Below, one piece after another: positions 12,268 to 53,118 of a stretch of DNA of 64,000 nucleotides. The stretch's first letter is position 1. Each line of letters begins with the position of its first letter. Where the stretch lies: assembly GCA_947462335.1 (NCBI GenBank), contig OX381715.1, forward strand, positions 44,733,472 through 44,797,471, given 5' to 3'. The DNA comes from Harmothoe impar (Eukaryota > Annelida > Polychaeta > Phyllodocida > Polynoidae). The notes under the pieces are model-generated. The model made no database searches and was not told where the DNA came from. It saw only the letters and a list, made by a program, of their open reading frames with translations. Both the position numbers and the translations under genes were made by a program.

Positions 12268-12327
12268 ATGCGGTCAAGCAAGGGTCCTCCACACTTCGTC
12301 AGCAAGTCCGCCCGGACCTGCCTCCTA

Positions 12328-15402: not shown

Positions 15403-15499
15403 TGCTGATGAACCTTCATCACCTGGCTTCTTTCCTCAGGGGTTACCCTACCGCCATCCCTGGTAACCCCCTCTAGTTTTCTAAAACCTCACTCCTCAG

Positions 15500-28839: not shown

Positions 28840-29795
28840 GAAAATAGTTGTCTTGTAGGAAGAATTTTGGGTATTCTCAGTGACTATATATGATAAAATA
28901 AAATGAGTTAAAAGCGGTCTCTTCTGAGACCTTACGCTGCAGCAGTTACCATCCCACAAGACAACAACAACAACAACAACAAAACTGCTTTTTAAATGTG
29001 CTTAAATCCTTTTTTTGTCAGGATGAGGCAGGAATGAAGCCCTCCCTCTCCCTGTTGAGATTATTTGCCGAGCTTGCAACTTTCCATTTCTTCAAGGTAC
29101 CCATGACCATGACGTTGGAGAGAGTAGCTCCTGCAGTCGTGACGTATTGGAGGTAGGAAATTCTTATATGGGCAGGCGGCGTAACTACTGATGTGCACAA
29201 TGCCCAGAACATGAAGTCTGTCACATTGTTGTCAAACCTGTGTCTCTTTAAAGTGGGTATTGGGTGATTAAAAAATGTAACGGAGGTAGTAATTCGTGAG
29301 ATATTTTGTGGATCACACAATTTCTTTGTGTTACTTTATCTAAAATGTGAATTTTCTAAAATACAGCTGCCTGGTGTTACGACTGGCCGGCCCATGCTAC
29401 ATTAGGTATGATTAAATCAGCCCTACCCACGTGGTACAGTGTAGATTGAGACTGTTTGGTTGACAACAAATATGAATTGTGTGACAATGGAATAGTCTTG
29501 TAAGCAATGATGGACCTCCAGCAAGTCTACACGGTGACATGATGGCCGTTCTTTTCTTAAAATAGACATTTGACATGAGGTAAGTTACATGAGGGAAAAC
29601 ATCTTTTAGTGACATGACATAGTGTGTTGCTTAAAATCGACATGAAACACGGTCCGTTCTCAGGGACAACATGGACGTTGATATCGTAAGTGACATGACA
29701 GACACTGTTGCGACATGACATAGTGTGTTGTTTAAAATTGACATGGAACATGTTCGGTAGTTAGGAAAAAAAATAGGACATTGACATTATTGTTT
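28840..29795. other. No gene; degenerate GACATGACATAGTGTGTTG repeats
   Basis: GACATGACATAGTGTGTTG occurs at about 29612 and 29713 with related ACATGA-rich units between 29570 and 29755. The last bases, GTTT at 29792-29795, are the target duplication of the Gypsy element that follows. Confidence 0.6.
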
Positions 29796-30232
29796 TGTAG
29801 GGGCTAGGGTTATACGGGTGTGTTATATGACGAGTGCTGTTGGATGTTGTGTTGCGAGCTCAGTCCGAACCCTTCAGTCCGATGGTAGGTGGCAGCACCT
29901 ACCCCGGGCTTGGGGTATGGACAGAGGTCGCTATAGGCTTCCGGTCTGCGTGTGCGCGCGCAGGCTGGCTGCCTATATATACCCAGCATCTGGCGGTACT
30001 CGTCGGTTACTCTGAGCCACGCTGGTAAGGAGACCCCGTGATCATTACGGCTGATTCGCCTACTGACCCGTTCCGAACTCTATAGGGAGTTCGCACACAT
30101 AGATACTGCTTGTCTAGGTTTTCTGAATAAACCCGATTTGCAACCTGTAACACTTGATCCGAACTGTGTCGACTTTGTTCTTTAATTGATACTCTACCAA
30201 TATCATAAAGAGACAAAGTATCGTTTATTACA
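29796..30232 (+). repeat. 5' LTR, family A
   Basis: 437 bp, TGTAGGGG...TTATTACA. TATATATA at 29974-29981 is the likely promoter box and AATAAA at 30126-30131 the polyadenylation signal, in the order expected for U3-R-U5. The only difference from the 3' LTR that I find is T versus C in CCGAYGGTAGG (near 29882 and 42127). Confidence 0.97.
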
Positions 30233-30233
30233 C

Positions 30234-30248
30234 TGGTGCCGTGACCAG
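30234..30248 (+). promoter_or_regulatory. Primer binding site, tRNA-His
   Basis: TGGTGCCGTGACCAG begins two bases after the LTR. Twelve bases are complementary to the 3' end of animal tRNA-His. CTGGT...ACCAG around it could fold into a small hairpin. Confidence 0.85.
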
Positions 30249-30423
30249 TTCTGAGTGAAACGCAGGTTAGCCTGTGCAGTAGCGCAGACCTCCTGCTCTG
30301 GACGGAGCAGCGAGGTCTCCCGATGAGGCGCCAGCCTTATCACCGGAGGGGTTAGATACCCGCAGGAGTGCGAAGGTTCCATCCAGAACAAGCGCATTTT
30401 TGGGATACAAAGGTCCCGAAATA

Positions 30424-31773
30424 ATGAATCGCTCATTAGATGAAATGAGCCTGTCAATGTTCAACGTTGGTGGGTCAAGATCAGCCGCTCCGAATCCACG
30501 GAGGGCTACCATCTTGGAGGAACGTCGTTTCGACGACATGAGAGAGGCCAGAATACAGGAGCGTGTGCAAATGGCCCAAATGGAGTTGTTGACCATTCAG
30601 AAACAGTCGAATGAATGGAAAAGCAGTCTGATTGCATTGGAAGGTGCAGTCACACATAGAGCTTCCAAAATCAAGGAGAAAGACGCAAGGCTTTCAACTT
30701 TGTTGGAGGAGAACGAGAAGCTGGTGCAATCCCTTAGCAGGGTTCGAGTGGAGTTCGATCAGAAACAGGCTGATCTACAGGGACTCCGTTCCGACTTTGT
30801 CCAGGCAAACACTGAGCTGAATCAGATTTGTGCGGCCCGAGATGCCGTCATCCATGAAGCAGAAGGGACCCGGGCAGAACTTGTTCGGGACACTGAAGAC
30901 TTACGGGAGGTTCGCCGAAGTCTAGTGTCGGAATGTGACATTCTGAAGGCAAAAAGAACTTCTTTGGAGCAGTTTTTGTCAGAGACCAGGGAGAGTATAC
31001 AGGATAGCAGTACCTCGTACGCTTCCGCTGATAATGACAGTCCGAAAGGTCCTCATTACAGGAGTTTTACAGACACCCCAAATCTTCCTATGGGACGTGG
31101 GATGACTGTAGAAGGTGCCTTGTCTACTTCAACGCCAGGACAACCACTAAAGGTTGGCCGGGCAAGGGGTAGAGGTAGGGCGAGTGATTACTCACCTAGG
31201 GTGGGTATCAGTGGTATCCGTCCAATTCCGAAGCAGGTCTTTTCGGCTCCGACATGTGTAAACACGGCGGGCAGGGGAAGGTCATTATCGGAGTTGGTGC
31301 GGAGTCCACGTTCTCAGTTGAAACTGGATGAGCAGCAACTGGATTCGGAACGCTTGAAGAAAGCATCCGAACAAGATAAGGCGGCCAAGACCGACTTAAC
31401 TCCCTCGAGTTTGTCGCAATGGCGAGAATGCCAAGCAAACATACTGTTCAATGAACAGAAAAACTTGGAATTGGAGAGGCGAGATGTGTATCGCAAACAG
31501 CAGGCTGCTCTTGAGCAGCAACAAGAACGCATGAAGGAAAATGCAGCCCTCGCTGAGGAATTAGCAGAGCAGGAGGCGGCGGTTTTGAGAGCTCGACAAG
31601 AAGGGCTCCGAGCGGCCGGTGAAGCTGCGAAAGCTAAATTGGCGGAGGCACAGCAAGAGGAGGAGGCTGAGAAACAGGCCAAGGAACTGGAAAAAGAGAA
31701 AGCGGCGCATCAGCGATTGCTTGCTCTGGCCCAGCAGTGTCAGTATATGACTGACCAGGAGAAAAATTGGTGA
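30424..31773 (+). CDS. gag: Gag, N-terminal coiled-coil part (ends at an in-frame TGA)
   Basis: The first good ATG after the primer site is at 30424. The frame opens at TTG at 30400 but nothing supports that start. It encodes 449 residues before TGA at 31771. Long helical, charged stretches occupy roughly residues 30-190 and 310-445 (for example EELAEQEAAVLRARQEG), separated by a serine/glycine/arginine-rich linker. Coiled coils of this kind would drive Gag multimerisation. The reading frame after the TGA is the same, and no ATG lies near it, so this and the next entry are one Gag gene cut by a stop. The protein would assemble the cytoplasmic particle that holds the RNA. Confidence 0.85.
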   Translation: MNRSLDEMSLSMFNVGGSRSAAPNPRRATILEERRFDDMREARIQERVQMAQMELLTIQKQSNEWKSSLIALEGAVTHRASKIKEKDARLSTLLEENEKLVQSLSRVRVEFDQKQADLQGLRSDFVQANTELNQICAARDAVIHEAEGTRAELVRDTEDLREVRRSLVSECDILKAKRTSLEQFLSETRESIQDSSTSYASADNDSPKGPHYRSFTDTPNLPMGRGMTVEGALSTSTPGQPLKVGRARGRGRASDYSPRVGISGIRPIPKQVFSAPTCVNTAGRGRSLSELVRSPRSQLKLDEQQLDSERLKKASEQDKAAKTDLTPSSLSQWRECQANILFNEQKNLELERRDVYRKQQAALEQQQERMKENAALAEELAEQEAAVLRARQEGLRAAGEAAKAKLAEAQQEEEAEKQAKELEKEKAAHQRLLALAQQCQYMTDQEKNW

Positions 31774-32997
31774 TTCAGTCAAGGTGTGGACCCCACTAAG
31801 GATTTGGTGTCGTATGGTACCTACCAGACCTATCTGGAGAGACAGAATAACTTGCCTACCAGAGGCGCTACTCCGGGGACGACTCCGGGCGCAAAGAGTC
31901 CGAGGAGGGCTCCAAGGAGAACAATTCTGAGTACAGAATTGCAAGAGTTGTACGATACAAACCCAGCAATAGCTGGGATCGGATTGCACAACGTGGGTAC
32001 AGAAAAGGACGCCTCGGCTTCCATTTCTAAATGCCTGGCGATAACCTCTAAAATTAGGGGGTCATCCAACGCTGCTAGACGCATTGCTAGCGAGCCTTTT
32101 CCCTACTGGCAGAAAAACTCTTGGGAAGAGTGGTTGGGAGCCACCGTTGAGGACATCAACCTCAGTGGGTGGGATCAACAGGATGCAATTCCGTACGTCT
32201 GTAAGGGATTGCGCTTGGGGGATGGCCTGATGGCCGTGGAGCAGTGGAAAGATGAATGCGGACCCCGCGGCACTTTCAAACAACTGGTAGAGATCGGAAC
32301 TATCCTATACGGAGACTCCGCTCGGATTGACCCGATGGTCGCTTTTAAGAAGCGAGTGCAAGGCAAGAACGAGGCCCCGAGGGTTTTCGGACTTGCACTG
32401 ATGAGACTCCTGAAGAAGGTACATCCAGCTTCAGGAATCCATGATGCCTTATTCTCTAAGGAATTGTTCTCTCAGTTTGTTGCTGGACTGAGGGACCCAG
32501 AAATACAACATGTGGTGTATGATACCTGGAGAGCAGATACGTCACTAGATGACCTTTTTAAGGCCATCGACATACATGCTCTCAAGAAGTCACTGTTAGG
32601 GGACCGGGTGCCCACCCGGGCCTCGGCCATTATAGAGTGTTCTCCGGAGCAGTCTGATGGTTCGGGCAGTGAGGAAGAGGGAGCGATAGCTTCTGCAGCT
32701 CAGTTTAAGAGGAATGGAAATTCCTCTAAAACGCCGTGGAAAAATAGGAAGCCGGAAGGGGGTGGAAACCCTCCTCCGAAGAAGGAATCATCGGACCAAA
32801 AAGCTCCGATAATGGACGCAGCGTTTTTCACATCGCTGTTTGAGAAGATGACGACTTCCATTCAGGGGGCTACTCAGCCCAACCGGAGGAAGATCAATCG
32901 GCGGACCGCCAAGTGCTATAGGTGCCTGGAGATCGGTCACTTTGCTGCGGAGTGTACGGCTCCGACTCCGAAAGTTCCAGGAAAGGAGGGAAACTAG
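31774..32997 (+). CDS. gag: Gag, C-terminal capsid and zinc-knuckle part
   Basis: 407 codons continue in the same frame as the preceding part, directly after the TGA. The middle (about 32100-32610) is tryptophan-containing and helical (SWEEWLGATVEDINLSGW, DLFKAIDIHALKKSLLG), resembling a retrotransposon capsid domain. A basic linker leads to a single CCHC knuckle, CYRCLEIGHFAAEC, near 32914-32955, which binds RNA. The first in-frame ATG is only near 32230, so without readthrough this part would not be made efficiently. The last codons contain the -1 slippery site. Confidence 0.85.
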   Translation, partial: FSQGVDPTKDLVSYGTYQTYLERQNNLPTRGATPGTTPGAKSPRRAPRRTILSTELQELYDTNPAIAGIGLHNVGTEKDASASISKCLAITSKIRGSSNAARRIASEPFPYWQKNSWEEWLGATVEDINLSGWDQQDAIPYVCKGLRLGDGLMAVEQWKDECGPRGTFKQLVEIGTILYGDSARIDPMVAFKKRVQGKNEAPRVFGLALMRLLKKVHPASGIHDALFSKELFSQFVAGLRDPEIQHVVYDTWRADTSLDDLFKAIDIHALKKSLLGDRVPTRASAIIECSPEQSDGSGSEEEGAIASAAQFKRNGNSSKTPWKNRKPEGGGNPPPKKESSDQKAPIMDAAFFTSLFEKMTTSIQGATQPNRRKINRRTAKCYRCLEIGHFAAECTAPTPKVPGKEGN

Positions 32998-33032
32998 AGG
33001 GGGTGGTCCGAGAAGGCGAGCGGACGACCCCT
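32988..33032 (+). promoter_or_regulatory. -1 programmed frameshift signal between gag and pol
   Basis: The heptamer GGGAAAC (32988-32994) sits in the gag frame as G GGA AAC and is followed at once by the gag stop TAG. Pol is open in the -1 frame. After a 4-base spacer, 32999-33010 can pair with 33021-33032 in a 12-pair stem containing one G-G mismatch and one terminal G-U, with a 10-base loop. A slippery heptamer plus a nearby stable stem is the standard retroviral arrangement; GGGAAAC is a known slippery sequence. Confidence 0.85.
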
Positions 33033-36000
33033 GTATATGATGTACGCCAACATACCAGAGAGGTAGAGCCTAGTGAAATTCCGAAGGCAGGAAGGGAATC
33101 AGGGGTGGCTTCGAGCTTGAGGGGCTCGGATGCCGGCCTGGTTAACATTCCAGTCCAACAGTTGCCCGGCAATGAGGCAGGGAGGCCCATTACGGATAGG
33201 AACGAGGAAGTTGCGGCTGTCACAGACACCGTGTGGGTAGGGAGTACCCAGCTTTCCCCGGATCATCCATGTTTCGACCATTTGAAGAAACATGGCCTTG
33301 ATTTGGCTGCTCCGAAGGATTTTAAACGCTTTACTGTAAACCCGTCTCCGCTGGGGGGGAGGCGGTGGTATGTGTCTGTTACTGTGGCCGGTAGAGCGGG
33401 CGAATTTTTAGTAGATACGGGAGCTAGCCACTCCTTTATCTCCTCTAACTTCTATGCTCTTATGCCGGATAGTCGTGATAACTTCAAAACGAGGGTAAAC
33501 GCCTGTTCGGCCGATGGGTCAAGTATGCAGACGTATGGGCGCGCGTTCATACCGCTCCGAATTGGAGGGAAGGAGTATGTGGCTTCTCCCACCATTGCGG
33601 ATATTGCAGACGACAGTATACTCGGATTGGATTTTTCGGCGTTGTATGACGCGGTCCTGAATCCGGGTACAGGGGTACTCCTGATAGAGCACCCGTACCG
33701 TGCGGTAGAGCGATGTGTGCTCCGACAAGTGTCGACAGTGGCAACGGTGGTCCAAACTGTAAAGATTCCTCCCGGACAGACGTGTGACGTGCTGGTCCGA
33801 AGCAAGGGGCTTAGGAGAGAGGAAGAGGCAGTTGTGGAGCCGGATGTGGCCATGTTGGGTAGTATCGGTTTGACGGGCATGGACACCCTAGTGGGTGATG
33901 GTGCTTGGACCGTAGTGCCGGTTTCTAACCCCGGGTTGGAACCGAAGTATCTAAGGAAAGATACAATACTGGGGAAGGTGTCCACCAGTGAGGCAGTGAT
34001 GCCTGCTGGACAGGTGAGCATGAAGGGTGACCCTTCTCCGACCGCTCTGAGTGAGGGACTTGAGAAAATGATCTCCGAAACGGATTTGACGGATCGGAGG
34101 GATCTCGACTCCCTAAGGAGGCTGGTAGTGAAGTATCAGGATGCATGGCAGGTGGAGGGGGAGCCTTTGGGCCGAACCGACAAAGTGTTGCATTCTATCA
34201 ATACGGGTGATGCACAGCCTTTCAAGATGCCTTACCGACGCTTGCCTTTGGGTAAGAAAGCGGTGGTAGAGGAACAAGTGAAGACCATGTTGGAACAGAA
34301 GGTGATCGTGCCTAGCACTAGCCCCTGGTCCAGCCCGGTCCAGATGGTTACTAAGAAGGACGGGTCTATCCGATTTTGTATCGACTATAGGCGCCTGAAT
34401 GGGGTAACCAAGAAAAATGCATATCCTCTCCCCCGGATTGATGAGACTCTGGACTCTTTGGGTGGGAACCAATGGTTCTGCACCCTTGATTTGCAGTCCG
34501 GATATTGGCAGATCGGGATGAAGGAGGAGGATAAAGAGAAAACGGCTTTTACAAGTCACATTGGACTGTATCAGTTTGAGCTGATGCCCTTCGGGTTGTG
34601 CAACGCCCCGGCCACTTTTGAGGCTATGATGGAAACTCTTCTGAGTGATCTGTTGTGGCGCAAATGTTTGGTATACTTGGATGATGTCATTGTCTTTGGC
34701 AAGACTTTTGAAGAGTGTGCGTTGAACCTCGGAGAGGTTTTGGAACGAATTCGGTCCAATGGCTTGACATTAAAGCCGAAGAAATGTGAACTTTTTCGGA
34801 AGTCCATGGTCTATTTGGGCCGGATCATCTCCACCGAGGGTGTGCAGGCTGATCCGGCTAAATTGGAGACTGTGGAGACTTGGGAAGTTCCAAAAGGACC
34901 AAAGGATATCAGATCCTTTTTAGGGTTCTGTTCCTATTACAGGGACTTCATCCCCGGATTCTCTAGGGTGTCTCAGCCATTACAACGGTTGAGCCATTGG
35001 ACTCCGGGGAGAAAAAAAGAACCCTTCCCATGGGGGATGGAACAGAATGAAGCCTTCAAAGAGATTAAGGCGTTGTTCCGAACCACCCCGGTGCTGAGAT
35101 ACCCTACGGAGAAGGGGCATTTCATCCTTGACACTGATGCGAGCAATGAGAGCATCGGGGCCGCATTGTCCCAAATCCAGGACGGAGTAGAGGTCCCGCT
35201 GGCGTTCGCTAGTAACAGTATGAACAAGGCACAGAGAAATTATTGTACTACCAAGCGAGAGCTGCTCGCAGTAGTGGTGTACACGAAGAAGTTTCGGCAC
35301 TTCTTATATGGAGGAAATTTCACACTCCGTACCGATCATTCGGCCTTGAGGTGGCTCCTTAATTTTAAGGACGCCGAGGGAATGATTGGTCGGTGGTTGA
35401 ATCACCTCAGCGAGTTCGGACTGGAAAACTCTCATATCCAGCACCGAGCAGGCACGAAGCATATTAATGCTGACTGCCTGAGTAGACGTCCGGTACGCCG
35501 TTGTGTGCGTCCGGAGTGTGGGGATTGTGGTGCTCACAATGCTGTGGTAGCGAGTGTGCGTTTGCCTTATGATGGGTTGTTGCAAAACCTGTTGGATTGG
35601 TCCACCGACACTATAAGGACGTACCAGATGGCCGATCCTACCATAGCACGACTGAGGGAGCTTGTCCCTACTGGGGTCTGTCCAGTGAGACCCGAAATAT
35701 CACTGGAAAACCGTGAAATGCGACGTTTCTTGGCTCAGTTCCACGAACTGGAGGTCCGAGACTCGTTGTTGTGCAGGTGGAAGACTTGTCCCAGAAAGCG
35801 GAGGGTGTTACAAATGGTAATCCCTGCTGCTATGAGGAAAGACATCCTGTACTACTGCCACGGCCATTCCACTAGTGGGCATTTCGGAAAGAAACGCTCG
35901 TTGGAAAGGCTGAGTCGGAGATACTACTGGCCCGGCATGTCAGGCGACCTTTTAAGGTGGATCGAGACCTGTCCGGCCTGTTGTTTAGGCAAACCTGGTC

Positions 36001-37163
36001 CTGGATTAGGAAAATTGCCACTGCAACAAGAGCTATTCGGAGTGAGATTTGCTCGAATAGCTGTGGACATTATCAGTGGAGTTAAACCCACTCCAAAAGG
36101 TAATACGTGTATGATGGTGGTCTCGGACTACTATACGAAATACACCCGAGTGTACCCACTCGAGGATCATACCGCTGCTACTTGTGCGGAAGCATTGGTG
36201 AAGGGGTGGATCCTCCATCTGGGGGCTCCTTTGATGTTACATAGCGATCAAGGGAGAGAATTTGAGTCCAAACTATGGACAGCTATGTGCCATCAGTTGG
36301 CTATATGCAAAACTCGGACCAATCCGTACCGGCCACAGTCCGACGGGCAGGTGGAGCGGTTCAATCGGACCTTGATCCAGGTTTTGAAGCCATTAGTGAA
36401 CTCCCATATGGATGATTGGGATGATCAATGCGAATTTGTGGTGCATGCGTATAACAATACGGTCCACACTTCAACAAATTGCACACCGAACCTCTTGGTG
36501 TTTGGAGAGGACTTGATCATGCCGGCGGATTTAGTATTCGGGGTGGTAGGGATCAGTCCGGAAGCACCATGTACGGTGCTGTTTGTGGAATCTCTACGAG
36601 AGAGGTTCAAATTTGCCTACGAAACAGTTAGGGCTCATTTGCTCAAAGCTGCGAATTGGCAGAAGGTGGGTTACGACACCAGATTGAAGTTGCGACGATT
36701 CGTAGTGGGGGATAGAGTGATCCGCCTACACGAACCGCTCTGCAACGTCAAGCTGGCGAATAACTGGGATGGACCGTACACTGTGGTTAAATGTATCAGT
36801 CAAACGACTGTGTTGATTCAGTCCGAAGCAGGACGCATCCGGACGAGCCATGTGGCTCGGTTGCGTGCTTGGGCTGGAAGGGAGCTCACCCCGGAAACGG
36901 AGGTGGAGGAGGGAACTTCGGAGGCTAAATTTGTACCTTTGGAAGGGGTGTCAGTGGATACCCCTAAGAGAGTGGTACGAAAGAAGCTCCGGAAGACCGT
37001 GAAAAAGAAAGTCTCGGCAGGCGAAGGAAGAAGGGCACGGAAAACTAAAATCAAGGCTGGAGTTTTAGTTAAGAACGAGTGTCCTTCGGCCAGGTTACGA
37101 GAGGTGGACGGGAAACCCGTTCGGCGAAGCCCAAGGCTGGTGGCTAGAGGGGCTGTAACCTAG
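32994..37163 (+). CDS. pol: Pol polyprotein: protease, RT, RNase H, integrase
   Basis: Reached by -1 frameshift at 32994; 1389 residues follow. Domains in order: aspartic protease with LVDTGASHSF (DTG aspartate codon at 33414); RT with DLQSGYWQ and catalytic YLDD at 34674-34685; RNase H with FILDTDASNE, TTKRELLAVV and RTDHSALRW (35120-35500); integrase HHCC domain (GHFGKKRSLERL to CPACC, 35870-35985); and the integrase core with VDIISG, HSDQGREFES and QSDGQVERFN giving the DDE triad. WDGPYTVVK near 36765 is the GPY/F motif. The C-terminus is lysine/arginine-rich with no chromodomain. The open frame upstream to 32922 overlaps gag. All catalytic residues are present and no break is seen, so the enzyme set could be functional. 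Confidence 0.95.
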   Translation, partial: LEGVVREGERTTPVYDVRQHTREVEPSEIPKAGRESGVASSLRGSDAGLVNIPVQQLPGNEAGRPITDRNEEVAAVTDTVWVGSTQLSPDHPCFDHLKKHGLDLAAPKDFKRFTVNPSPLGGRRWYVSVTVAGRAGEFLVDTGASHSFISSNFYALMPDSRDNFKTRVNACSADGSSMQTYGRAFIPLRIGGKEYVASPTIADIADDSILGLDFSALYDAVLNPGTGVLLIEHPYRAVERCVLRQVSTVATVVQTVKIPPGQTCDVLVRSKGLRREEEAVVEPDVAMLGSIGLTGMDTLVGDGAWTVVPVSNPGLEPKYLRKDTILGKVSTSEAVMPAGQVSMKGDPSPTALSEGLEKMISETDLTDRRDLDSLRRLVVKYQDAWQVEGEPLGRTDKVLHSINTGDAQPFKMPYRRLPLGKKAVVEEQVKTMLEQKVIVPSTSPWSSPVQMVTKKDGSIRFCIDYRRLNGVTKKNAYPLPRIDETLDSLGGNQWFCTLDLQSGYWQIGMKEEDKEKTAFTSHIGLYQFELMPFGLCNAPATFEAMMETLLSDLLWRKCLVYLDDVIVFGKTFEECALNLGEVLERIRSNGLTLKPKKCELFRKSMVYLGRIISTEGVQADPAKLETVETWEVPKGPKDIRSFLGFCSYYRDFIPGFSRVSQPLQRLSHWTPGRKKEPFPWGMEQNEAFKEIKALFRTTPVLRYPTEKGHFILDTDASNESIGAALSQIQDGVEVPLAFASNSMNKAQRNYCTTKRELLAVVVYTKKFRHFLYGGNFTLRTDHSALRWLLNFKDAEGMIGRWLNHLSEFGLENSHIQHRAGTKHINADCLSRRPVRRCVRPECGDCGAHNAVVASVRLPYDGLLQNLLDWSTDTIRTYQMADPTIARLRELVPTGVCPVRPEISLENREMRRFLAQFHELEVRDSLLCRWKTCPRKRRVLQMVIPAAMRKDILYYCHGHSTSGHFGKKRSLERLSRRYYWPGMSGDLLRWIETCPACCLGKPGPGLGKLPLQQELFGVRFARIAVDIISGVKPTPKGNTCMMVVSDYYTKYTRVYPLEDHTAATCAEALVKGWILHLGAPLMLHSDQGREFESKLWTAMCHQLAICKTRTNPYRPQSDGQVERFNRTLIQVLKPLVNSHMDDWDDQCEFVVHAYNNTVHTSTNCTPNLLVFGEDLIMPADLVFGVVGISPEAPCTVLFVESLRERFKFAYETVRAHLLKAANWQKVGYDTRLKLRRFVVGDRVIRLHEPLCNVKLANNWDGPYTVVKCISQTTVLIQSEAGRIRTSHVARLRAWAGRELTPETEVEEGTSEAKFVPLEGVSVDTPKRVVRKKLRKTVKKKVSAGEGRRARKTKIKAGVLVKNECPSARLREVDGKPVRRSPRLVARGAVT

Positions 37164-37369
37164 CTTGTTTACACAACGAGTGTGGTGTCCTGTGTTGTCC
37201 TATATGTTATATGTATGTTACCAACAGGGGCGCTCAGAGTCAAGAGGAAAAGAATGTAAGAGTGCTCCCCGAGGGTGGTGGACGGATAATCCGGTGGGGT
37301 AATCTTCGATTTCCCATAAATATCCACTAATACTCCTGATGAGCTCTTTATTCGAAGTATATTTTGACT

Positions 37370-37560
37370 TTTGTGAGCCGCCTACGTAGCAGTGTGATCC
37401 CCCGAGCCCGAGCTGCGGGCGGGAAAGGTCGTGACCTGATTAAACAGTAATTGGGTCACACCGGGTAACGGGATCGCGTCCAATCACGCGAGACGCTGCG
37501 CATGCGCTTTGTTTTAAAAACAAAAGCGAGGGAACGCCATATTGATTTTGGGCTCTCCCC
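37370..37560 (+). promoter_or_regulatory. Putative internal promoter for the third ORF
   Basis: This CpG-rich segment lies between pol and the third ORF. It contains CCAAT at 37480-37484, a perfect NRF-1 type palindrome GCGCATGCGC at 37498-37507, and CGCCATATT (YY1-like, CCATNTT) at 37535-37543. There is no classical TATA box. The spacing and order resemble TATA-less housekeeping promoters of animals. The ORF ATG is about 200 bases downstream. That it drives transcription is inference. Confidence 0.5.
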
Positions 37561-37748
37561 GGTCAATAGCGGTGTTGGTCGGCAGCGTGGAAGTTGGTGT
37601 TTTGGACGGCTAGAAGAGGAGAAAAGTCAGTAAAAGAGTTGTAAGCAGTGAGTACTCTTTCCTGGTGCGTCTGAGACAAAGAGGGAGACGGGGAACTTGT
37701 GTTTTCCCCGTCAAAACTCCCGTCGAAAGACACTTTGCCGTAGTGAGG

Positions 37749-40700
37749 ATGGCCGAGCAACAGCTCCGTCAATCCGAACTCACCGGACACTCCGAGGTGG
37801 CATCCGCCACCGAGGAGGCAATGGATGCTCAGAGCCCTAGTGGTGATGAGTTGAGCCAGACACTAGCGGATCTCCGTGTAGATCCGGCCGTGTCCCCGAT
37901 CCGAAAGTCCCCGTCGCCGGACGGCAGCGAGGACTCCGGAGTACTGCTAGGACTCGCCTACACCCAGGTAGCGGCGGATCCTTCCGAGACGACTGCACGT
38001 CCCTCCCGGATATGCAGTCTCAGCATATCACCAAACCTCCAGAAGACGGTTGCTCGCAAACTGTCTATGGGGAGTGGGAGTGATTCCGACACTTCACGTC
38101 CGAGGACGCGCGGTGGGAAGGGTGCTACCCGAGATCGGTCCAAGTCGGCCGATACTAAGGCTAGTACTAAGGCTATCAAACACACTGGTGTGGGGAAGAA
38201 GCCTCCGGGAAAGGACGAGCCTAAAAAGCCCGCTCCGAAGAAGGAAAGTACTGCGAGTACGAAGAAGCCGGGTTCTAAGGCTGCCACTGCAGCGGCCTCC
38301 AAGGATCCGAAGACGGTTGACCCCAAGGCTCCTACTACGAAGGTGCCTAAGGGTCAAAAGAAAGCTGATCCGAAGCCTGGTGCTAAGGACCAGCTGGGGA
38401 AGGGGCCGACGTCCGACAGCACTAAAACTGTCAAGACTCCGGGTCCCAGTAAGTCCAACCTACCGATCCCTGCCAAGGGGAAAGGTAGTGGGAAGGCAGT
38501 TGTAACCAGAGCTGCTCCGACCCCAGCCGTTGACGTGTTGTCCTTCTCGCGAGGGCTGGACAACAGCTCAGCAGTAGCTGCTACAGCCGCTGCGATGGCT
38601 GGTACTAAGGGACATGGGGGAGCCCGTCCGAAAACGGTAGTTCCTCCCGAGGCACCTCGGACCGAGGAAGCTATGGATACATCATCCGCAGCCCATACGG
38701 TCCAGGTAGTGCAGGATGTGCTGTCTAGCATCACCTTCAACCTCCCGACTCCCCTGGAGCCAAGAAAGGAGGTACCCGTTCGGGTGGAGTTACCTCCTCC
38801 AAAAGAGGTACCCGTCCGAGTGGATACTCCTCCACAGTCTACCGAGCCTGCTCTGGAACCATCCAATACCATGGATATTTCGGAGGAAGCCGGGAAACTG
38901 GACCAGGCTGCAGGTGGTGGTCCACCTGGATCGGGGGTGCAAATTCTCGCTCCACATCAGCATGACGCATGGGAGAAGGAGGACGCCGACGTCCCATCCC
39001 TGCTCCGAGGTGCTATCATCGATCAGATGAGCGCCACAGAGGTCAGATCCTTCGATCTGATCCAAATGCGAACCTTCCGGGGGCTGGACGAGTTGTCTGC
39101 CAGGTTCCCGGCTTGGTTCCCAGATCGCCTAACGGCGGCCATGAACGATCTCAGCAAAAAGTCAGAGACAGCTCGCTTAGTTGCTGAGACCGAGGGACGT
39201 CCCGAACTTATCGCGGCCTTGGAGTACGACCTGCAAACTGCAGCGGAATTCCAGACCGTGCATAACCGGCGGGAGAAGAGGAGACATCTGACGCCAGCAA
39301 TGAAGCTGGCTCGGAGTATGGAACAGAAGACCAAAGAGTCCATTCTGGATGCCACTCTGGAGGATGAAATGATCCAACAGAACACGGCCGCGGCTAGGTC
39401 TGCAGACACTAGTCGCATGGAAAAGGCCAATCGGAGGGACCAATACCTACGAGAGACCATCAAGGTAACCTCTCGGAAGGGGGGTCGATCCGACGAGGAG
39501 GTAGAAGCGGTTCTGAAGGGATTGGATGAAAATACAGTCCCGGTCGACGAACTTCAGGTTCTGGTCCGGAATGCACTCCGAGCCAATGCTGCAAGTGGGT
39601 TTAAGTATTTTAAACCCATGTGTGTGAACGACTGCGTCAAGGACAAGCGGGCCTCACACATTCCGGAGGAGGTGAGTCCTGACGGTCTCTCTGATGACGA
39701 GGAGTGGATTAAGACGGATCCACTCGATAAGTCGGTACAGTTGTACCACTTTGAGCTCCTGGACAAGGTCCGAAATGGTAGTACCAAATACCATTCGCCT
39801 TTCCAGAAAGCTAAGTTAGCATGGGCTATGGCTAGATGGCATCCATTTAGCAAGTGCCCCTTTGAGCCTTGTCTGAACATCGACGAGACACTGGAAACGC
39901 CCCGAACTTGGCCTAGCAAGGTTCGGTACGCAAGGCATATTACCCGCTATCATTTGCGTCACTACATGCGGTATGACTGCTTGAGTGTGGGTACAAAGCA
40001 GAGCAAGGGTTGTCCGAATGGTGGCTGGTTCTACACTAGAGCCGATATCATCAGGCATCTTGCTAAGCAGCACGGCTTGGCTCTGGAGGTCGCGGCGGAA
40101 CGCATCCAGACAGCCCATCAGGAAGTCTACTCCCATTTCCCTCCCGTAGTGGGCCGAAATGAGAATCTCGAGGTGGATTTTGGCACCAACGAGAGAGGAA
40201 AGGTCCGGGTCTTTTACAAGGTAAACCCGGACGGCAACTACAACCGGGTTCCGGAAGGTGAGCTCTTCGATGAATTCGAGGAGTACCAGAAGCGTACCAG
40301 CACGCGAAAGGTGCGGCGCGCTCAGAAGAGACCTAGTGGGTCTTCGGAGCAGGCCGACTCTAAAAAGGCCAAAACGGATGAAAGGAAATCCGTTATGGAG
40401 AAGGCGGATCCGGGCTATAAAGGGCCGGCATTCACCTCTCATACGACCGACTGGAAGAAGGGTCCCCAGGGCAGGCCACCTCGGTCTGTTCCGGAGGATC
40501 CGAACTCCAGCACGATGGGGTCCTTCGCAGAGGAGTTCCCCGAAAATGAGATGGTTCCGGGTGATGAGTCGCAGACTCTAACCCAGACCGGTAAGACGAA
40601 GGCTCCAGCAAAGAAAACGCCGAAGCCAGTTCAGACCCCGGATCTCCCACCCGAGACCGCAGAGGAGGGGCGTCTAGTCTTGCGACTGAAGAGCCCTCCT

Positions 40701-41162
40701 TCGTTCCCTCCCGCCGACTTCACTTCCTATGAAGCCGGACAGGAGGCCTTCGGTCAATGGCAAGACAACTTTCATCGGTTGCTTGCTGGCCTGAGTCAGG
40801 AGGTGGCGATGTTGTCCTTAAACACGGTGCATCATCTCCATCAGAGGGAGGTCGCTACCCAGAAGGCAGCGGCTACGGAGTCCGTACAGGAAGAGCGTGA
40901 AAACGCTCGGACTGAACGATGTGCTGCTAAAACCGAAAGGAAGAAGCAAAAGTTGGCAGTTAAGAACGCCGAGGAAAAGCTGGACCACGAACGTCGTCGG
41001 TTCCGAGACTGCTTCGCGCATGAAATGCACGAGTGGGATGGAACTCGGGCTCAAATCGAGCTCTGGCTCCAGGAGCTGACTCTGGCGGAAGCTGCGTCGG
41101 ACTCTGAGGAGGAAGAGGAGCCGGCTAAACCCGGTTCCGAAGACGAGTCGGACTCCGGATAG
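37749..41162 (+). CDS. Third ORF of the Gypsy element: lysine-rich, zinc-finger-like protein of unknown function
   Basis: The ATG at 37749 has a strong context (GAGGATGG); the frame extends 28 codons upstream without another ATG. It encodes 1137 residues. Residues 1-110 are acidic and serine-rich. About 115-270 are lysine/proline/alanine-rich, like a histone H1 tail. About 420-680 are helical. Residues 703-775 hold two C2H2-like units, C-x4-C-x21-H-x4-H and C-x10-C-x14-H-x4-H. A basic nuclear-localisation-like patch (KVRRAQKRPS, KKAKTDERK) follows. About 1015-1105 are coiled coil and the end is acidic. There is no signal peptide or membrane segment, so it is not an envelope protein. I recognise no family. 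A nuclear, nucleic-acid-binding role is inference. Confidence 0.85.
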   Translation: MAEQQLRQSELTGHSEVASATEEAMDAQSPSGDELSQTLADLRVDPAVSPIRKSPSPDGSEDSGVLLGLAYTQVAADPSETTARPSRICSLSISPNLQKTVARKLSMGSGSDSDTSRPRTRGGKGATRDRSKSADTKASTKAIKHTGVGKKPPGKDEPKKPAPKKESTASTKKPGSKAATAAASKDPKTVDPKAPTTKVPKGQKKADPKPGAKDQLGKGPTSDSTKTVKTPGPSKSNLPIPAKGKGSGKAVVTRAAPTPAVDVLSFSRGLDNSSAVAATAAAMAGTKGHGGARPKTVVPPEAPRTEEAMDTSSAAHTVQVVQDVLSSITFNLPTPLEPRKEVPVRVELPPPKEVPVRVDTPPQSTEPALEPSNTMDISEEAGKLDQAAGGGPPGSGVQILAPHQHDAWEKEDADVPSLLRGAIIDQMSATEVRSFDLIQMRTFRGLDELSARFPAWFPDRLTAAMNDLSKKSETARLVAETEGRPELIAALEYDLQTAAEFQTVHNRREKRRHLTPAMKLARSMEQKTKESILDATLEDEMIQQNTAAARSADTSRMEKANRRDQYLRETIKVTSRKGGRSDEEVEAVLKGLDENTVPVDELQVLVRNALRANAASGFKYFKPMCVNDCVKDKRASHIPEEVSPDGLSDDEEWIKTDPLDKSVQLYHFELLDKVRNGSTKYHSPFQKAKLAWAMARWHPFSKCPFEPCLNIDETLETPRTWPSKVRYARHITRYHLRHYMRYDCLSVGTKQSKGCPNGGWFYTRADIIRHLAKQHGLALEVAAERIQTAHQEVYSHFPPVVGRNENLEVDFGTNERGKVRVFYKVNPDGNYNRVPEGELFDEFEEYQKRTSTRKVRRAQKRPSGSSEQADSKKAKTDERKSVMEKADPGYKGPAFTSHTTDWKKGPQGRPPRSVPEDPNSSTMGSFAEEFPENEMVPGDESQTLTQTGKTKAPAKKTPKPVQTPDLPPETAEEGRLVLRLKSPPSFPPADFTSYEAGQEAFGQWQDNFHRLLAGLSQEVAMLSLNTVHHLHQREVATQKAAATESVQEERENARTERCAAKTERKKQKLAVKNAEEKLDHERRRFRDCFAHEMHEWDGTRAQIELWLQELTLAEAASDSEEEEEPAKPGSEDESDSG

Positions 41163-42040
41163 GATTATCCTATTCTAGGAGCCGATTAGGAGAAAGGGGG
41201 GGTATTCTAAGTATACCAACCCTACAAGCAAAACCCTTAGAAAGGGTTTAGGAGTGTCCGGACAGAGGAACGCGGCAGGCTGGCTACGCAAGGATCCAGT
41301 CTGCCAGGTGGTACTGACGGAGGAGGACAAGGAGATCCGGAGGGGACGCTGAACTCGGGACTGGAGCACTTTACCAACATGGATCCGATACACGATGTTT
41401 TTTATATAAACTCTGGATATCAGGACCGAGTGCTCCTAATTATAAGTCCGAAGATCGCCTGGAGGCAGGACTATTTTTTTTTCTCTATTTATCACCTAAA
41501 AAGCTCCCGAGCATGAGCTATGAACTTTCTCGTTCCGGTGAGTAAGAGCTGAACGAAGTAGGTTCTGAAAGCCGGGCGGAATGCAACACCATCAACAGAG
41601 GATCCGGATCTTCGCTACAAAACCATGTATGATGTCTTTTTGTAATAATACTTTAATATGTCTTTAAAACTTTAAAAGAAGTGATATTGTTTATCACTTA
41701 TAAGTATTATTCGTTACGAGTTTAATTATCTCGGGGTCCTGAAGGGACGAAATTTTTTTACTGTGATATTGTACGTTTTCAAGTGTTTGTATACTATATG
41801 TATAGATTAACTCCATCTATCCTAGGGAATGGGGCGTAATTGTCATTACGGTCTATATATGTAGAAATGTGTGTAATTAATACCTTTTTGTGTTCAACAG
41901 TATACGTCATATTGTTTGTAAGGTATAACTTTAATAAACCCCTAAGGTGGTATTTATAAGATAATGCCAGTCCGAAGTGTTTTCGGACTTTAACCTTAAT
42001 TAATTTTTTTACCTCCCGGTTATTATCTGGTAGGGGGTAG
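41163..42040 (+). other. 3' non-coding tail of the Gypsy element with two purine tracts
   Basis: AGGAGAAAGGGGGGG at 41188-41202 looks like a retroviral polypurine tract but lies about 840 bases before the 3' LTR. A weaker purine run GGTAGGGGGTAG abuts the LTR (42029-42040) and is in the normal place to prime plus-strand DNA. TTTAATAAACC near 41930 offers an extra polyadenylation signal. No ORF. Confidence 0.7.
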
Positions 42041-42477
42041 TGTAGGGGCTAGGGTTATACGGGTGTGTTATATGACGAGTGCTGTTGGATGTTGTGTTGC
42101 GAGCTCAGTCCGAACCCTTCAGTCCGACGGTAGGTGGCAGCACCTACCCCGGGCTTGGGGTATGGACAGAGGTCGCTATAGGCTTCCGGTCTGCGTGTGC
42201 GCGCGCAGGCTGGCTGCCTATATATACCCAGCATCTGGCGGTACTCGTCGGTTACTCTGAGCCACGCTGGTAAGGAGACCCCGTGATCATTACGGCTGAT
42301 TCGCCTACTGACCCGTTCCGAACTCTATAGGGAGTTCGCACACATAGATACTGCTTGTCTAGGTTTTCTGAATAAACCCGATTTGCAACCTGTAACACTT
42401 GATCCGAACTGTGTCGACTTTGTTCTTTAATTGATACTCTACCAATATCATAAAGAGACAAAGTATCGTTTATTACA
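42041..42477 (+). repeat. 3' LTR, family A
   Basis: 437 bp, identical to the 5' LTR except for one base. Followed directly by GTTT, the target duplication. Confidence 0.97.
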
Positions 42478-43300
42478 GTTTGTTACATGCGACATAGAGC
42501 ACCGCCGCCATCCCCTCGCCCACTCCACACTTCATCTAGACCCTTAGTATTGCATGATTTCGAAGCTGGACAAAAGTACCATCTGTAATCTTGCTAAATG
42601 GATCTGGAGTTGAATATTTACTGTGACTATGAAAACGTTTTATGAAAGTTATAATACATCTTGAACACTACAATCATTTGTTCTAACCTCTTTAATAGTA
42701 CCTGTCCTGTCACAATATAAAAAGACCCCTCTACCGATCCGTTTAGCAAGATTGATGGGGACAGCCACCAGACAGACAGACATAACCAGGCCGGAGCGTG
42801 GGCGGGCGAGCGGCAGCGAGTCTCTCGCCTTCCTTCCTTCCTTCCTTCCTCCGTCCTTCCTTCCTTCCTCCTGGCAGCCGTTAAATCCACCATCGCAACC
42901 ATCCTTTTATCATAGTAATAATATAAAATTCTACACCTAATCCACTCACATTGTAGGTTTTCAGATTTTCAATATTTTTTTTCCATTTTTAGGGTTCCTA
43001 TCACTGAGTATGTAGCATTAAGTCTCACACAGGTCAACCCTGGAAACAAATTCCCGTGAATTCCCCCTGAATTACACGGGTTGATCTGGAGTCAGTCCCG
43101 GGATTAACCCGGGTTGTATTCCCGTTATATCACGGGATTCCGTGAGCAAAATTTCCCGTTATATCACGGGATTCTTGTAAAGAGGGATGCATGGGTTCGA
43201 ATCCCATACTAGTAGACCTGAATGGTTCTAGTTAACCTTTCTCATGCAATTTATCAAAATATTTCTATAAAACTATCCACTTATATACCTTCTAACCACT
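42478..43300. other. No gene; (CTTC)n microsatellite and CCCGGG palindromes
   Basis: CTTCCTTCCTTCC runs lie at 42829-42870. Between 43030 and 43160, inverted CCCGTTATATCACGGGA-type motifs resemble, in inverted form, sequence at 44680-44810, so the block 43030-44810 may be one composite element. A B-box-like GGTTCGAATCCC lies near 43193. Confidence 0.5.
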
Positions 43301-43309
43301 AACAATCAT

Positions 43310-43440
43310 ACATATGCCTGTCCTAACTGGGATTTGAACCAGCTACCTTCACATCCATAGTCCCGTGCTCTAGGCCCTGACCTACCAGGGCATGTAATTG
43401 GGAGAGGTATATGAACTGTGACTAGAGTGGCTGTTGGCCA
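43310..43440 (-). mobile_element. tRNA-derived SINE, copy 1
   Basis: The minus strand carries AGGTAGCTGGTTCAAATCCC (B box) preceded by TAGGTCAGGGCCTAGAGCACG (A-box region). Copies 2 and 3 lie at 44020-44160 and 44335-44480. No closed acceptor stem. Confidence 0.65.
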
Positions 43441-43444
43441 TATA

Positions 43445-43541
43445 GGGACCTTTAGCAAACCCGAAGTGGCTCATTTAACCCAGACATATCCTATCCTTTC
43501 AGCCCTGCTATATCTGCTATTACGTGCTTGCTAAAGGTCCC
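43445..43541. mobile_element. GGGACC-ended MITE, copy A
   Basis: 97 bp, from GGGACCTTTAGCAA to TTGCTAAAGGTCCC, a 14-bp perfect inverted terminus, flanked by TA on both sides. Non-coding. Confidence 0.8.
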
Positions 43542-43901
43542 TAAAGAGAAAAGCTGCGCATACATGATCAACTAAATAAAATATAACCAGGGAAAAATAG
43601 TGATCATGTAGGATAAATGTAATTTCTGCATCATGTAGCTAATTTGTGTAATCAGATTAAAAAAATTGTTCCAAAAATAGATTTTACCTTTGCGTAATTT
43701 AGGTTAAAACCATAGTCTATAGGCTACATTTACTGTTTAGCCTTATTTGTTTTTATCATACATTGTGTGATGGGCTGGGTAAACTCGTATAAGCTAAAAA
43801 AGAACTACACTCATTATCTTTATGAATATTCCATTCATAGATTCAATGAGCCACGTTGGGTTTGCTTATGGTCTCTCATGTATATCCTGATTTCCTCTTT
43901 A

Positions 43902-44009
43902 GGGACCTTTAGCAAACACGACATAGTTAATTTAACACAGACGTATCCTATACCTACAGCACTGCTACGTCTGTGTTTAATGAGCTACGTCGTGTTTGCT
44001 AAAGGTCCC
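43902..44009. mobile_element. GGGACC-ended MITE, copy B
   Basis: 108 bp, ends GGGACCTTTAGCAAACACGA and its exact complement, flanked by TA. The interior continues the palindrome (ACACAGACGTA/TACGTCTGTGT), so a transcript would fold into one long hairpin. Confidence 0.82.
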
Positions 44010-44019
44010 TATAGTCAGC

Positions 44020-44160
44020 AGCTACTCTATAATACTATGGCACAGTCACCACTAGTCACAGTTCATATACCATTCCCAATACATGCCCCAATAGGTGAGG
44101 GCCTAGAGCACGGGACTATGGACGTGGAGATGGCTGGTTCAAATCCCCATTAGGTCATGC
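44020..44160 (+). mobile_element. tRNA-derived SINE, copy 2 (opposite orientation)
   Basis: Reverse orientation relative to copies 1 and 3, with TGGTTCAAATCCCC at about 44134 and AGAGCACGGGACTATGGA upstream. It adjoins MITE copy B. Confidence 0.65.
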
Positions 44161-44334
44161 ACACAATGATTCCCATCCCTATCTAGATTTGCATTTCTTT
44201 TAAGTGGTAAAGAGGGGTGCTTTGGTTCGAATCCCATTAAAAAAAGATGCACATCTTTCTAGTACATGTGTTCTGTGTGAGTGATTAAAATATTCACATA
44301 AAATTACCCACATATATTTGACCATTTAATACCT

Positions 44335-44480
44335 GCATGTGCTGACTGGGATTTGAACCAGCTACCTTCACATCCATTGTCCCGTGCTCTAGACCCTGAC
44401 CTACCGGGGAATGTGCTGGGAGAGGTATCTGAACTGTAAACAGTGGTGACTGTGCCATAGTATATAGAGTAGCTGTTTAC
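44335..44480 (-). mobile_element. tRNA-derived SINE, copy 3
   Basis: Minus-strand AGCTGGTTCAAATCCCAGTC with the same upstream GGTCAGGGTCTAGAGCACGG as the other copies. A further GGTTCGAATCCC box at about 44225 probably belongs to another decayed SINE. Confidence 0.65.
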
Positions 44481-48081: not shown

Positions 48082-48130
48082 TTTCTCCCGTCCTATTTTG
48101 CTGAAAAGCAGCACAGCATTCCTCATAAAC

Positions 48131-49960
48131 ATGCCTCCACGTAAGGGAACATCAGGTAACTACTCCAACTAGGGCGTCTTCACAAAATAAGGCCACGGCA
48201 GTGAAGAAAAACCAGGCGGCCCAACCCGACCCGGGGACGCCGCCCACAACCCCGGCCCCCGCAGTTGACCAGGCCCTCGCTGGATGTGTTGCTGCACTAG
48301 AGACTGATGTTGGTGAGTTAAAAAATCATGTGGGATGGGTCGAGACGATGGCCTCCTCCATGTTAAGCAAACTCACTATCTTGGTTCCTGATAAGACGGA
48401 TGCCCCAGTAACATCGATGCCTGTGTCAGCCCCGGTGTCCATGGCGTCCGTGGTGGTCACTACCATGGCCGAGGCCGTCACAATGACATTGACGCCCTCT
48501 ACCACTGTGACTCCTATACCAGCGGTCACTGTTCTGACCCCGGCTGTCACAAGTGTCAACGATGCCCGCTCTCCCAGAGGCGGCAAGGCCTTGGCGGCGG
48601 CACTCGGACCACAGGTGGGGGCTAGTAGGTATGCTCCATACTACAGCCTGCCCTACCCTCCCCCTCCTGTCTTCCATCATCTGGGGATGTACCCCCTGTA
48701 TCCTCCCCCTGCACCTGGTTCTGTCCTGCCTCCTGTTGGTGTGACTATGCAGGACAACGACGTCATGATCATGATGCAGGCTGCTGCTCCACCTTTGATG
48801 CCCTACGCCCCCCTGCCTGTCAACAGCGCACAGGCCAACATCCCAGGTGTCAACAATCAAGTTCGAGCTCTACTTTCAACCACTGCACATCAGCTGTCAG
48901 GATTTAAAGGTAGACCTACTCACCCCCATCATTACATAACAAGGGGCCCTCAGTGCACAAAGACAACAATAGATTCTCTTACTGTCCCGGAGTATTTGTT
49001 TGGTCTTTTCAGGCTCATGAGGGACCCCCTCACCCCCTGAAGTCCGCCCTAAACTGGCTTTGCACATCTATAATGTTATTGAGGATGCTGCAGAGTTCTC
49101 CTAGGGACAAGTGAGGCAATGGTCAGAAGATGAGCTGACAAAGGTGGCTAATGGTAGGCTCAACTGGATTACCGATACTATGGCCATCCATGACCTAAGG
49201 TCCCAAACCTCCAAGTTCAACAATGGCAAGCTCCACCAGGCTGACGCTACCACTGCCCATCAAAAATCCCAGGGCTCCGCCCAGCACCAGACTGACGCTA
49301 GGAGATGTCCCCCGCATCAGGCTACTAATAGGTAGGATGTACCATGTCCGACCTATAACACAACTTCAGGTTGTAACAAGCAAGATGGCCACATGGAGAA
49401 CGGCAATGGGCAAGGACACCATTACAAGCACTGCCGGAAACATCAAAATGTCCTGTACTCCCATCCTAAGTTGGACCGTAGAAACAGAGGAAAAATTGCC
49501 CAGTCCTTTCGCCACCAGGCCGGACAAGACCGGCCAGCCTACTAATCTCCAGTACCCTAACATGCAGGCTGTCAATGATATGGATGTGAAGTCTACCCAT
49601 CCTACCTCACACCATGCTTGTAAACTGGACCCAACAGTGCCACCCTATGTCTCTATTGCCCTTGGTAATGTTAAAATACCCGGGGCCTCCTTGGTGCCTA
49701 CTACTGCTAATAATCACTCTTGCCCACCTGGTGATGGAAACTTGGCACGGCATGACGAAACTATGCTGGCTCAGACTCTACAAATTCGGGAGAAGAGTGA
49801 TACTGTATCGCAAAGACATTATTCACCTGGCCCATGGCTCGGTTTCTCAGGAGCAGCCTTTGCTCAAGGACGACCCACAACCCCTCTCACTCCAGGTGGA
49901 TGATACTGACCCTTTACCTTTTCAGTGCCATCTCCGCTGTGAGCACAATAAGGACTAAGT
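48131..49960 (+). pseudogene. Gag region of the Ngaro-like element
   Basis: An ATG at 48131 opens a short frame that meets a stop. The main open stretch is 48201-49040 in another frame, rich in alanine, proline, threonine and valine. It ends in a segment (DSLTVPEYLFGLFRLMRDP) continuing past a stop. Near 49360-49450 one frame shows a cysteine/histidine cluster (GCNKQDGH...YKHCRKHQ) like the tail of DIRS/Ngaro Gag. Position between A1 and RT supports gag. Broken by several stops and frame changes. Confidence 0.65.
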
Positions 49961-49994
49961 AACACATGCTGATGTACATGGATCAGAGTTTACA

Positions 49995-52970: not shown

Positions 52971-53118
52971 CCCAAATGAAAGCATATGCTGACGCACAAA
53001 TTGCAAGCAGGCACCTAGTCAAGAAGGAGCCTGCACTTCCCACTCCCTTCTTCACTAGAATATGATATCTGTGTCTTAACTCTGCATTATTGTTACAGGT
53101 ACCCCGTTAGGGGATCAA

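Follow-up and report, generated by a model that had tools for sequence, protein, structure and literature searches.

A conserved, fast-changing third gene behind pol in a Ty3/Gypsy lineage of the annelid Harmothoe impar, read as a probable nuclear accessory protein

The locus described here raises the question of what a large open reading frame (ORF) is doing behind pol in an animal retrotransposon when it does not resemble an envelope (env) gene. The stretch analyzed, referred to below as the window, comprises 64,000 nucleotides (64 kb) of H. impar contig OX381715.1 (44733472-44797471) and contains a Ty3/Gypsy insertion at 29796-42477 (+), with the frame in question, ORF3, located between pol and the 3' long terminal repeat (LTR). 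A preliminary description of this DNA had pointed to an intact 1137-residue frame between LTRs differing at one position, and this was confirmed by the start codon, the stop codon and the LTR alignment (single mismatch at 29883). Judged by its position after pol, its conservation and the purifying selection seen in sequence comparisons, ORF3 is a real third gene of long standing in a Ty3/Gypsy lineage. Our overall reading, held with moderate confidence, is that its product is an accessory nuclear protein regulating the DNA or RNA of the element itself.

The ORF3 frame starts with an ATG at 37749, its stop codon ends at 41162, and no internal stops are present; among 200 dinucleotide shuffles of the same DNA, the longest open run was 247 codons. 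The start is further supported by a database relative, P0003, whose N-terminus aligns with it. The features of the gene and its product are the following (residues in brackets):

37749..41162, + strand: ORF3, 1137 aa
38049..38588, + strand: lysine/alanine/proline-rich, histone H1-like stretch (101-280), 17.8% K by composition
39690..39707, + strand: SDDEEW motif (648-653), identical in the window protein and four database relatives
39855..39953, + strand: zinc unit 1 (703-735), C703-x4-C708-x21-H730-x4-H735
39978..40073, + strand: zinc unit 2 (744-775), C744-x10-C755-x14-H770-x4-H775
40326..40373, + strand: bipartite motif KRPSGSSEQADSKKAK (860-875), resembling a nuclear localization signal (NLS)
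40533..40580, + strand: conserved linear motif EFP...PGDESQTL (929-944) in a predicted disordered linker
40719..41015, + strand: predicted long helix, coiled-coil candidate (991-1089), low-confidence model
41001..41069, + strand: conserved C-terminal block F-x2-C-F-x6-W-x-G (1085-1107)
41097..41159, + strand: acidic end

A search of 5.8 billion proteins yielded at least four relatives (P0001-P0004), all of them without genomic context. With regard to ORF3 residues 430-1137, P0001 shows 34% identity over 95% and P0002 26% identity over 48%, and P0003 and P0004 are two further relatives. SDDEEW, CPF, C708, H730, H735, H738, C744, H770 and H775 are invariant in all five proteins, as are F1085, F1089, W1096 and G1098 near the C-terminus. 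Both C2H2 units have counterparts in 4/4 relatives, none of which lacks the second cysteine of unit 2; its spacing is shifted by a single residue in P0001 and P0002. The bipartite motif, which is an NLS by prediction, occupies the same place in the window protein and in P0001, P0003 and P0004 (3/4 relatives). The two zinc units, the H1-like lysine-rich part and the acidic end of the preliminary description thus all stand, while its coiled coil is retained as a long helix at about residues 991-1089 predicted by a low-confidence model.

Profile and structure comparisons, proposed in the preliminary description as a check, were run and placed ORF3 in no known family. It matched nothing in Pfam at E<=1 and nothing in PDB by sequence, and its profile retrieved from PDB only four chance-level matches (E 0.33 and above); none of P0001-P0004 exceeded the Pfam cut-off, with a weak C2H2 match for P0004 (E 0.023). 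Mean pLDDT was 51 for a three-sequence structure model and 59 for a five-sequence core model, and the latter, compared with PDB and BFVD by Foldseek, had no match at E<=0.001. Residues 929-944 are at best a weak candidate for an LC8-type TQT anchor: [ST]Q[TV] alone is common by chance, being present in 60% of ORF3 shuffles, and by LC8 anchor rules the prolines N-terminal to the anchor and the many charges disfavor LC8 binding.

We then considered the copies of ORF3 in the 1.51-Gb host assembly. Close copies, 98-100% identical, number at least 41 including that of the window (41 were scored among 8,040 first-look candidates, so that the count is a lower bound); 33/41 are stop-free and 8/41 carry one or two stops. 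With P0003 as query, 42 genome matches were obtained, 25/42 of them stop-free within the match, and some copies of the window family occur in both lists. From these matches, 20 loci (L009-L028) were drawn, 15 of which are divergent, i.e., less than 75% identical to the window ORF3, with main blocks 54-69% identical. When one of the divergent loci, L024, was used as query, the best 41 matches were, itself apart, 70-94% identical, and 26/41 were stop-free. P0002 retrieved 45 matches of another ORF3 group, with 42/45 stop-free in the match and 31/45 inside frames of at least 980 codons. Apart from the element itself, no ORF3 match was found in the 64-kb window.

Pol of the window lineage is present upstream in 10/20 of loci L009-L028. 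In seven of the other ten, the first aligned ORF3 residue is preceded by under 650 bases; in L009 the first 264 residues are missing, L010 has a tandem copy of the ORF3 start, and L026 has 0.98 kb without pol. The association extends to L062, the single P0002-like locus whose upstream (2 kb) was read: its pol is 64.7% identical to that of the window over residues 975-1413, its gene start is estimated at about 0.6-0.7 kb past the pol end, and its ORF3-like match begins at P0002 residue 387. No ORF3 relative was seen outside retroelements, the upstream having been read in some loci only and the database relatives P0001-P0004 being devoid of context; likewise, none was found in viral contigs, also searched with pol, or in bacterial and archaeal genomes. 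Individual loci show rearrangements: L010 carries a tandem duplication of the first ~141 ORF3 residues, and in L013 and L018 a shortened pol runs nearly straight into ORF3, as if these were internally deleted derivatives keeping ORF3.

Purifying selection was indicated at two levels of divergence. Relative to the window copy, the changes present in at least two of the 40 other close copies comprise 64 synonymous and 39 nonsynonymous ones and no stops (nonsynonymous to synonymous ratio, N/S, 0.61 vs 2.49 under neutrality for the same types; 0 stops vs 2.9 expected), while those seen once comprise 114 synonymous, 112 nonsynonymous and 9 stops. Pairwise pN/pS across the 41 close copies was 0.22. 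The comparison of the divergent loci weighs more, because ranking the close copies by protein score lowers N. There, dN/dS was 0.16-0.23 for the whole of ORF3 in 15/15 loci, 0.10-0.19 for residues 601-800, the zinc core, in the 14/15 with finite dS, and 0.20-0.32 for residues 101-420, which are among the least constrained segments; these values are rough, because dS between the loci is near saturation. Of the eight zinc ligands, C708 is kept in 14/15 divergent loci, with a stop at this position in the remaining one, and the other seven are kept in 15/15. In SDDEEW, K replaces E651 in two of the same loci, and W653 is replaced by a stop in one. Taken at the level of sequence, ORF3 has thus been under purifying selection across divergent copies, which answers the doubt raised in the preliminary description as to whether the frame might be unselected or confined to one copy.

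Within the element, ORF3 is at the same time the fastest-changing part, because the pol-ORF3 gap, the LTR, the post-ORF3 region and pol are all more similar between loci. In six divergent loci, dN and dS were 0.018-0.054 and 0.22-0.67 for pol (pieces of 56-365 codons), in comparison with 0.18-0.32 and 0.92-1.59 for ORF3. Among the divergent loci, nine have 268 bp or more of the gap aligned, with 77-89% identity, and 13/15 retain some LTR, which is 84-90% identical; the post-ORF3 region is 72-80% identical, compared to 66-76% for the aligned ORF3 DNA. Exchange of ORF3 between element lineages, as suggested by dS, would also yield such uneven divergence.

The gap upstream of ORF3 contains the following features:

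37164..37748, + strand: pol-ORF3 gap, 585 bp, predicted internal promoter
37498..37507, + strand: NRF1 consensus GCGCATGCGC, 251 bp 5' of the ORF3 ATG
37536..37544, + strand: YY1-like GCCATATTG, 3' of the NRF1 site, in the window lineage

GCGCATGCGC is the sole match in the window to the NRF1 consensus GCGCNTGCGC, as given in PMC10810270. For [CT]GCGCA[CGT]GCGC, 0.013 occurrences were expected in the window and one was found, inside the gap, and there is no ATG from 37502 to the ORF3 ATG. An NRF1 site lies at -249 to -261 in 12/17 other loci with a placeable ORF3 start (7/12 divergent) and in 40/40 close copies with enough upstream, window included; L027 is counted in both sets. In the distant L062, whose gap aligns with that of the window in short blocks only (two of 24 bases at 96-100%), the NRF1 site is found at gap position 305 vs 335 in the window (chance for that gap, 0.00016), and a TATATAA comes after it. 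These sequence features predict that the gap is an internal promoter driving ORF3.

Based on these observations, the following course of events can be proposed. ORF3 would be transcribed from the internal promoter in the gap, where an NRF1 site is followed by no ATG before that of ORF3; because of this predicted promoter of its own, the protein could be made separately from the genomic RNA. It would enter the nucleus via the bipartite NLS, contact nucleic acid through its two C2H2 units and the lysine-rich stretch, and may self-associate through the C-terminal helix. We infer an early nuclear regulator acting on the element's own DNA or RNA, by which the LTR might be switched on or de-silenced, or genomic RNA carried out of the nucleus. 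Among the roles considered, one in transcription or anti-silencing is our tentative first choice, somewhat short of an even chance. The nuclear nucleic-acid-binding protein of the preliminary description is hence backed by conserved zinc units and a bipartite NLS-like motif, its function being deduced.

Several observations weigh against this reading. At the protein level, P0002 lacks the bipartite motif at residue 860 and has a similar run elsewhere only, ORF3 has no fold match, and its structure models are of low confidence. With regard to selection, the 41 close copies were ranked by protein score, which favors low dN; the changes seen once also show an N/S below neutral (0.98 vs 2.1), whereas their stops are at the neutral level (9 vs 8.7). 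The dS between divergent loci is near saturation. Old copies with 1-3 stops in the match, and hence dead themselves, account for 10/15 of these loci. As for the promoter, the YY1-like site is absent from L062, and in 5/17 loci the NRF1 site is not at its usual place: most of the gap is missing from L018 and L021, L014 retains ~120 bp of it, in L010 the site precedes the first of two ORF3 starts by 236 bp, and the 390 bp of gap retained in L012 contain no site.

The element also carries a dispersed sequence motif. TCCGA/TCGGA occurs 84 times in the element vs 28.6 expected from dinucleotides, and TCCGAA 38 times vs 7.4, while the window flanks contain 29 TCCGA vs 41.7 expected. The sites are spread over coding DNA, LTR and 3' region, with none in the 191-base leader or in the pol-ORF3 gap. 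Compared to synonymous shuffles of gag, pol and ORF3, TCCGA is the most enriched 5-mer (76 vs 33.2, z 9.0), and the enrichment holds in all phases with both strands pooled. Because the motif emerged from inspection of many words, replication in other loci counts: it is enriched in 20/20 other ORF3 loci (z 3.1-6.6), which, being related, are not independent tests, and in 14/15 divergent loci over half of the sites are at positions unlike those in the window. Overall, TCCGA(A) exceeds expectation roughly three- to five-fold across the element and roughly twofold in the divergent ORF3s.

TCCGA sites are also retained more than other CpG 5-mers (0.34 vs 0.178), and this holds in 5/5 phase classes of 4-8 sites each; CGAGC and GCCGC are retained as well or better, TCCGA being third of 51 CpG 5-mers. 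The motif is not enriched in the pol of L062 (2 vs 2.2 expected) or in a decayed Gypsy relative at 12-17 kb of the window (4 vs 5.2 expected). Its interpretation as a remnant of CpG decay was rejected, since neither of the decayed forms TCTGA and TCTAA shows enrichment and TCCAA only a slight one (42 vs 30.5); AGTCCGA as a site special to the LTR and the 3' region was likewise discarded, because the core motif also occurs throughout the coding regions. A lineage-specific mutation bias could explain the TCCGA pattern as well as selection does.

VANDALs are plant DNA transposons. Their VANC proteins, as described for Arabidopsis in PMC5735166, provide a precedent for anti-silencing in which a transposon protein finds its own family through dispersed motifs. 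Like ORF3, VANC is a non-transposase protein of a transposable element (TE) with regions that vary between families, and the TE family encoding it is highly enriched in a short DNA motif that is rare in other TEs (PMC5735166); at the scale of the window, TCCGA is likewise enriched in the encoding element and rare in the flanks. The VANC motifs, however, are located for the most part in tandem repeats of non-coding DNA (PMC5735166), in contrast to TCCGA with its spread over coding DNA, LTR and 3' region. An LTR-retrotransposon counterpart of VANC, in which the zinc core would recognize accumulated TCCGAA sites and mark the element's own chromatin for expression, is in our estimation an unlikely special case. 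ORF3 types would then diverge while pol and LTR remain similar, and another ORF3 type would go with another motif. Two C2H2 fingers would read ~6 bp.

The strongest rival to a role in transcription or anti-silencing is that ORF3 binds the genomic RNA, in its unspliced form, inside the nucleus and exports it, its zinc units contacting the RNA and its C-terminal helix multimerizing, in the manner of Rev or of the CERV protein of Cer1, a Ty3/Gypsy element of Caenorhabditis elegans. CERV shows that export of genomic RNA can depend on a post-pol gene (PMC10309623), and it is like ORF3 in several respects: both are large non-env genes between pol and the 3' LTR, with a cysteine/zinc motif, an NLS (an NLS-like motif in ORF3) and a helical self-association region (predicted in ORF3), and both belong to the fast-changing part of their element, CERV together with GAG being called the most species-specific part of Cer1. 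CERV is nuclear, which is predicted for ORF3, and its cysteine loop is required for RNA foci and export (PMC10309623). On the other hand, CERV, as described there, has 517 aa, a spliced mRNA sharing exons with gag and a possible C4 finger, while ORF3 has 1137 aa, two C2H2 units instead of a C4 loop and a promoter motif in the gap; the likeness is one of description.

The RNA itself was compatible with such a role. The RNA strand of the element (29796-41795, +) folds better than dinucleotide shuffles, with z below -2 in 23/30 400-nt windows, in comparison with 4/20 in the flanks. The gap (z -4.2) and the post-ORF3 region (z -5.0) were rejected as special RNA structures, as stable folding runs across the whole element; for the same reason, no export element stands out. 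We therefore regard export as possible, at a clearly lower probability than transcription or anti-silencing.

The remaining alternatives fare worse. Docking of the pre-integration complex to chromatin by ORF3 would fit the H1-like lysine-rich stretch, the zinc units and the acidic end, but a separate internal promoter would be unnecessary for integration targeting of this kind, which we consider unlikely. A divergent envelope protein, which the position after pol and the mildly hydrophobic N-terminus of P0002 (11-residue mean 1.77) might recall, is very improbable and was rejected: the top 19-residue Kyte-Doolittle mean is 0.81 in the window protein, denoting no membrane segment by hydropathy, and 0.65-1.31 in the four relatives, the N-terminal 11-residue maximum of ORF3 is 0.14 (by hydropathy only), no Pfam env family matches and the zinc ligands are conserved. 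By hydropathy, ORF3 hence shows neither the signal peptide nor the transmembrane segment of env-bearing errantiviruses and retroviruses, upholding the view of it as not env-like. Recent capture of a host exon in the window copy only, for which no Pfam or PDB match indicates an origin, has a negligible probability and is ruled out by at least 41 close copies, many divergent ones and lineage pol upstream in 10/20 loci and in L062, while an ancient host capture may have taken place.

The element carrying ORF3 has the hallmarks of Ty3/Gypsy, namely LTRs, a putative primer-binding site, a gag zinc knuckle and the pol order protease, reverse transcriptase (RT), RNase H, integrase, and it is flanked by a GTTT duplication (29792-29795 and 42478-42481). 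Its other features are:

29796..30232, + strand: 5' LTR, 437 bp, with TATATATA near 29975 and AATAAA near 30126
30234..30246, + strand: putative primer-binding site TGGTGCCGTGACC, directly 3' of the LTR, read from sequence
30424..32997, + strand: gag frame, helical N-half, zinc knuckle near 32911-32958 (Pfam)
32922..37163, + strand: pol frame with protease, RT, RNase H and integrase (zinc and core) by Pfam
41163..42040, + strand: region between ORF3 and the 3' LTR, 878 bp, with the inverted pair AGTCCGAA-N5-TTCGGACT at 41969-41989
42041..42477, + strand: 3' LTR, 437 bp

One in-frame TGA at 31771-31773 interrupts gag in the window copy. Because 81/102 gag matches scored genome-wide lie within continuous, stop-to-stop frames of 873-920 codons, gag is normally a single frame, ~860 codons long when counted from its ATG (30424), and that of the window copy is broken. 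The preliminary description had been silent on this, as well as on the predicted promoter, the fast change of ORF3 compared to pol and the TCCGA motif.

Other mobile elements surround the insertion. The decayed Gypsy copy at 12028-17250 (-) is related to the element, with pol pieces 35-89% identical (main blocks 53-71%), and its pol ends within the integrase zinc domain. At 1570-2517, an open frame matches tyrosine recombinases of the phage integrase family (Pfam E 5.9e-7), perhaps from a DIRS-like or Crypton-like element. A series of frames at 48129-54054 resembles a DIRS-like element, with RT-like and recombinase-like words read by eye; three pieces of it were tested and none had a Pfam match at E<=0.01. 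A non-LTR-like reverse-transcriptase fragment lies at 26172-26603 (Pfam E 2.5e-5, under the curated cut-off), and repeats containing GGGATTTGAACC, which we take to be the complement of the tRNA B box, occupy 43315-44463 and are presumably tRNA-derived SINEs.

The proposal that ORF3 is of an undescribed kind was overstated. Nuclear accessory proteins of LTR retrotransposons are already known from CERV and, judging from a title cited in PMC7264820, from maize Grande, an LTR element with an accessory gene in its 3' internal region, a nuclear protein and its own promoter. Grande, compared here by description, differs in its plant host and in the antisense orientation of the gene between pol and the 3' LTR (PMC7264820). 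Non-envelope third genes also occur in the LTR elements of bdelloid rotifers, where, as described in PMC5408684, they encode GDSL lipases, DEDDy exonucleases and transmembrane or coiled-coil ORFs, in contrast to the window ORF3, which has no Pfam family at E<=1. Tas of foamy viruses is a known transactivator, and these viruses, unlike the ORF3 element, have env. They combine an internal promoter with a regulatory gene in the 3' part (PMC7828637), as is predicted for the ORF3 element.

In the literature searched, which was mostly without subscription papers, the ORF3 family was not found described. The known nuclear accessory proteins of LTR retrotransposons are few, and a conserved family, unmatched in the libraries and literature searched, now joins them; its predicted NRF1 promoter is shared by lineages whose pol is 65% identical. 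The many divergent ORF3 copies in this one genome, a fair share of them uninterrupted, permit a side-by-side comparison of cis motif, promoter and protein, and if TCCGA is the target of the protein, one could test directly whether a retrotransposon recognizes itself.

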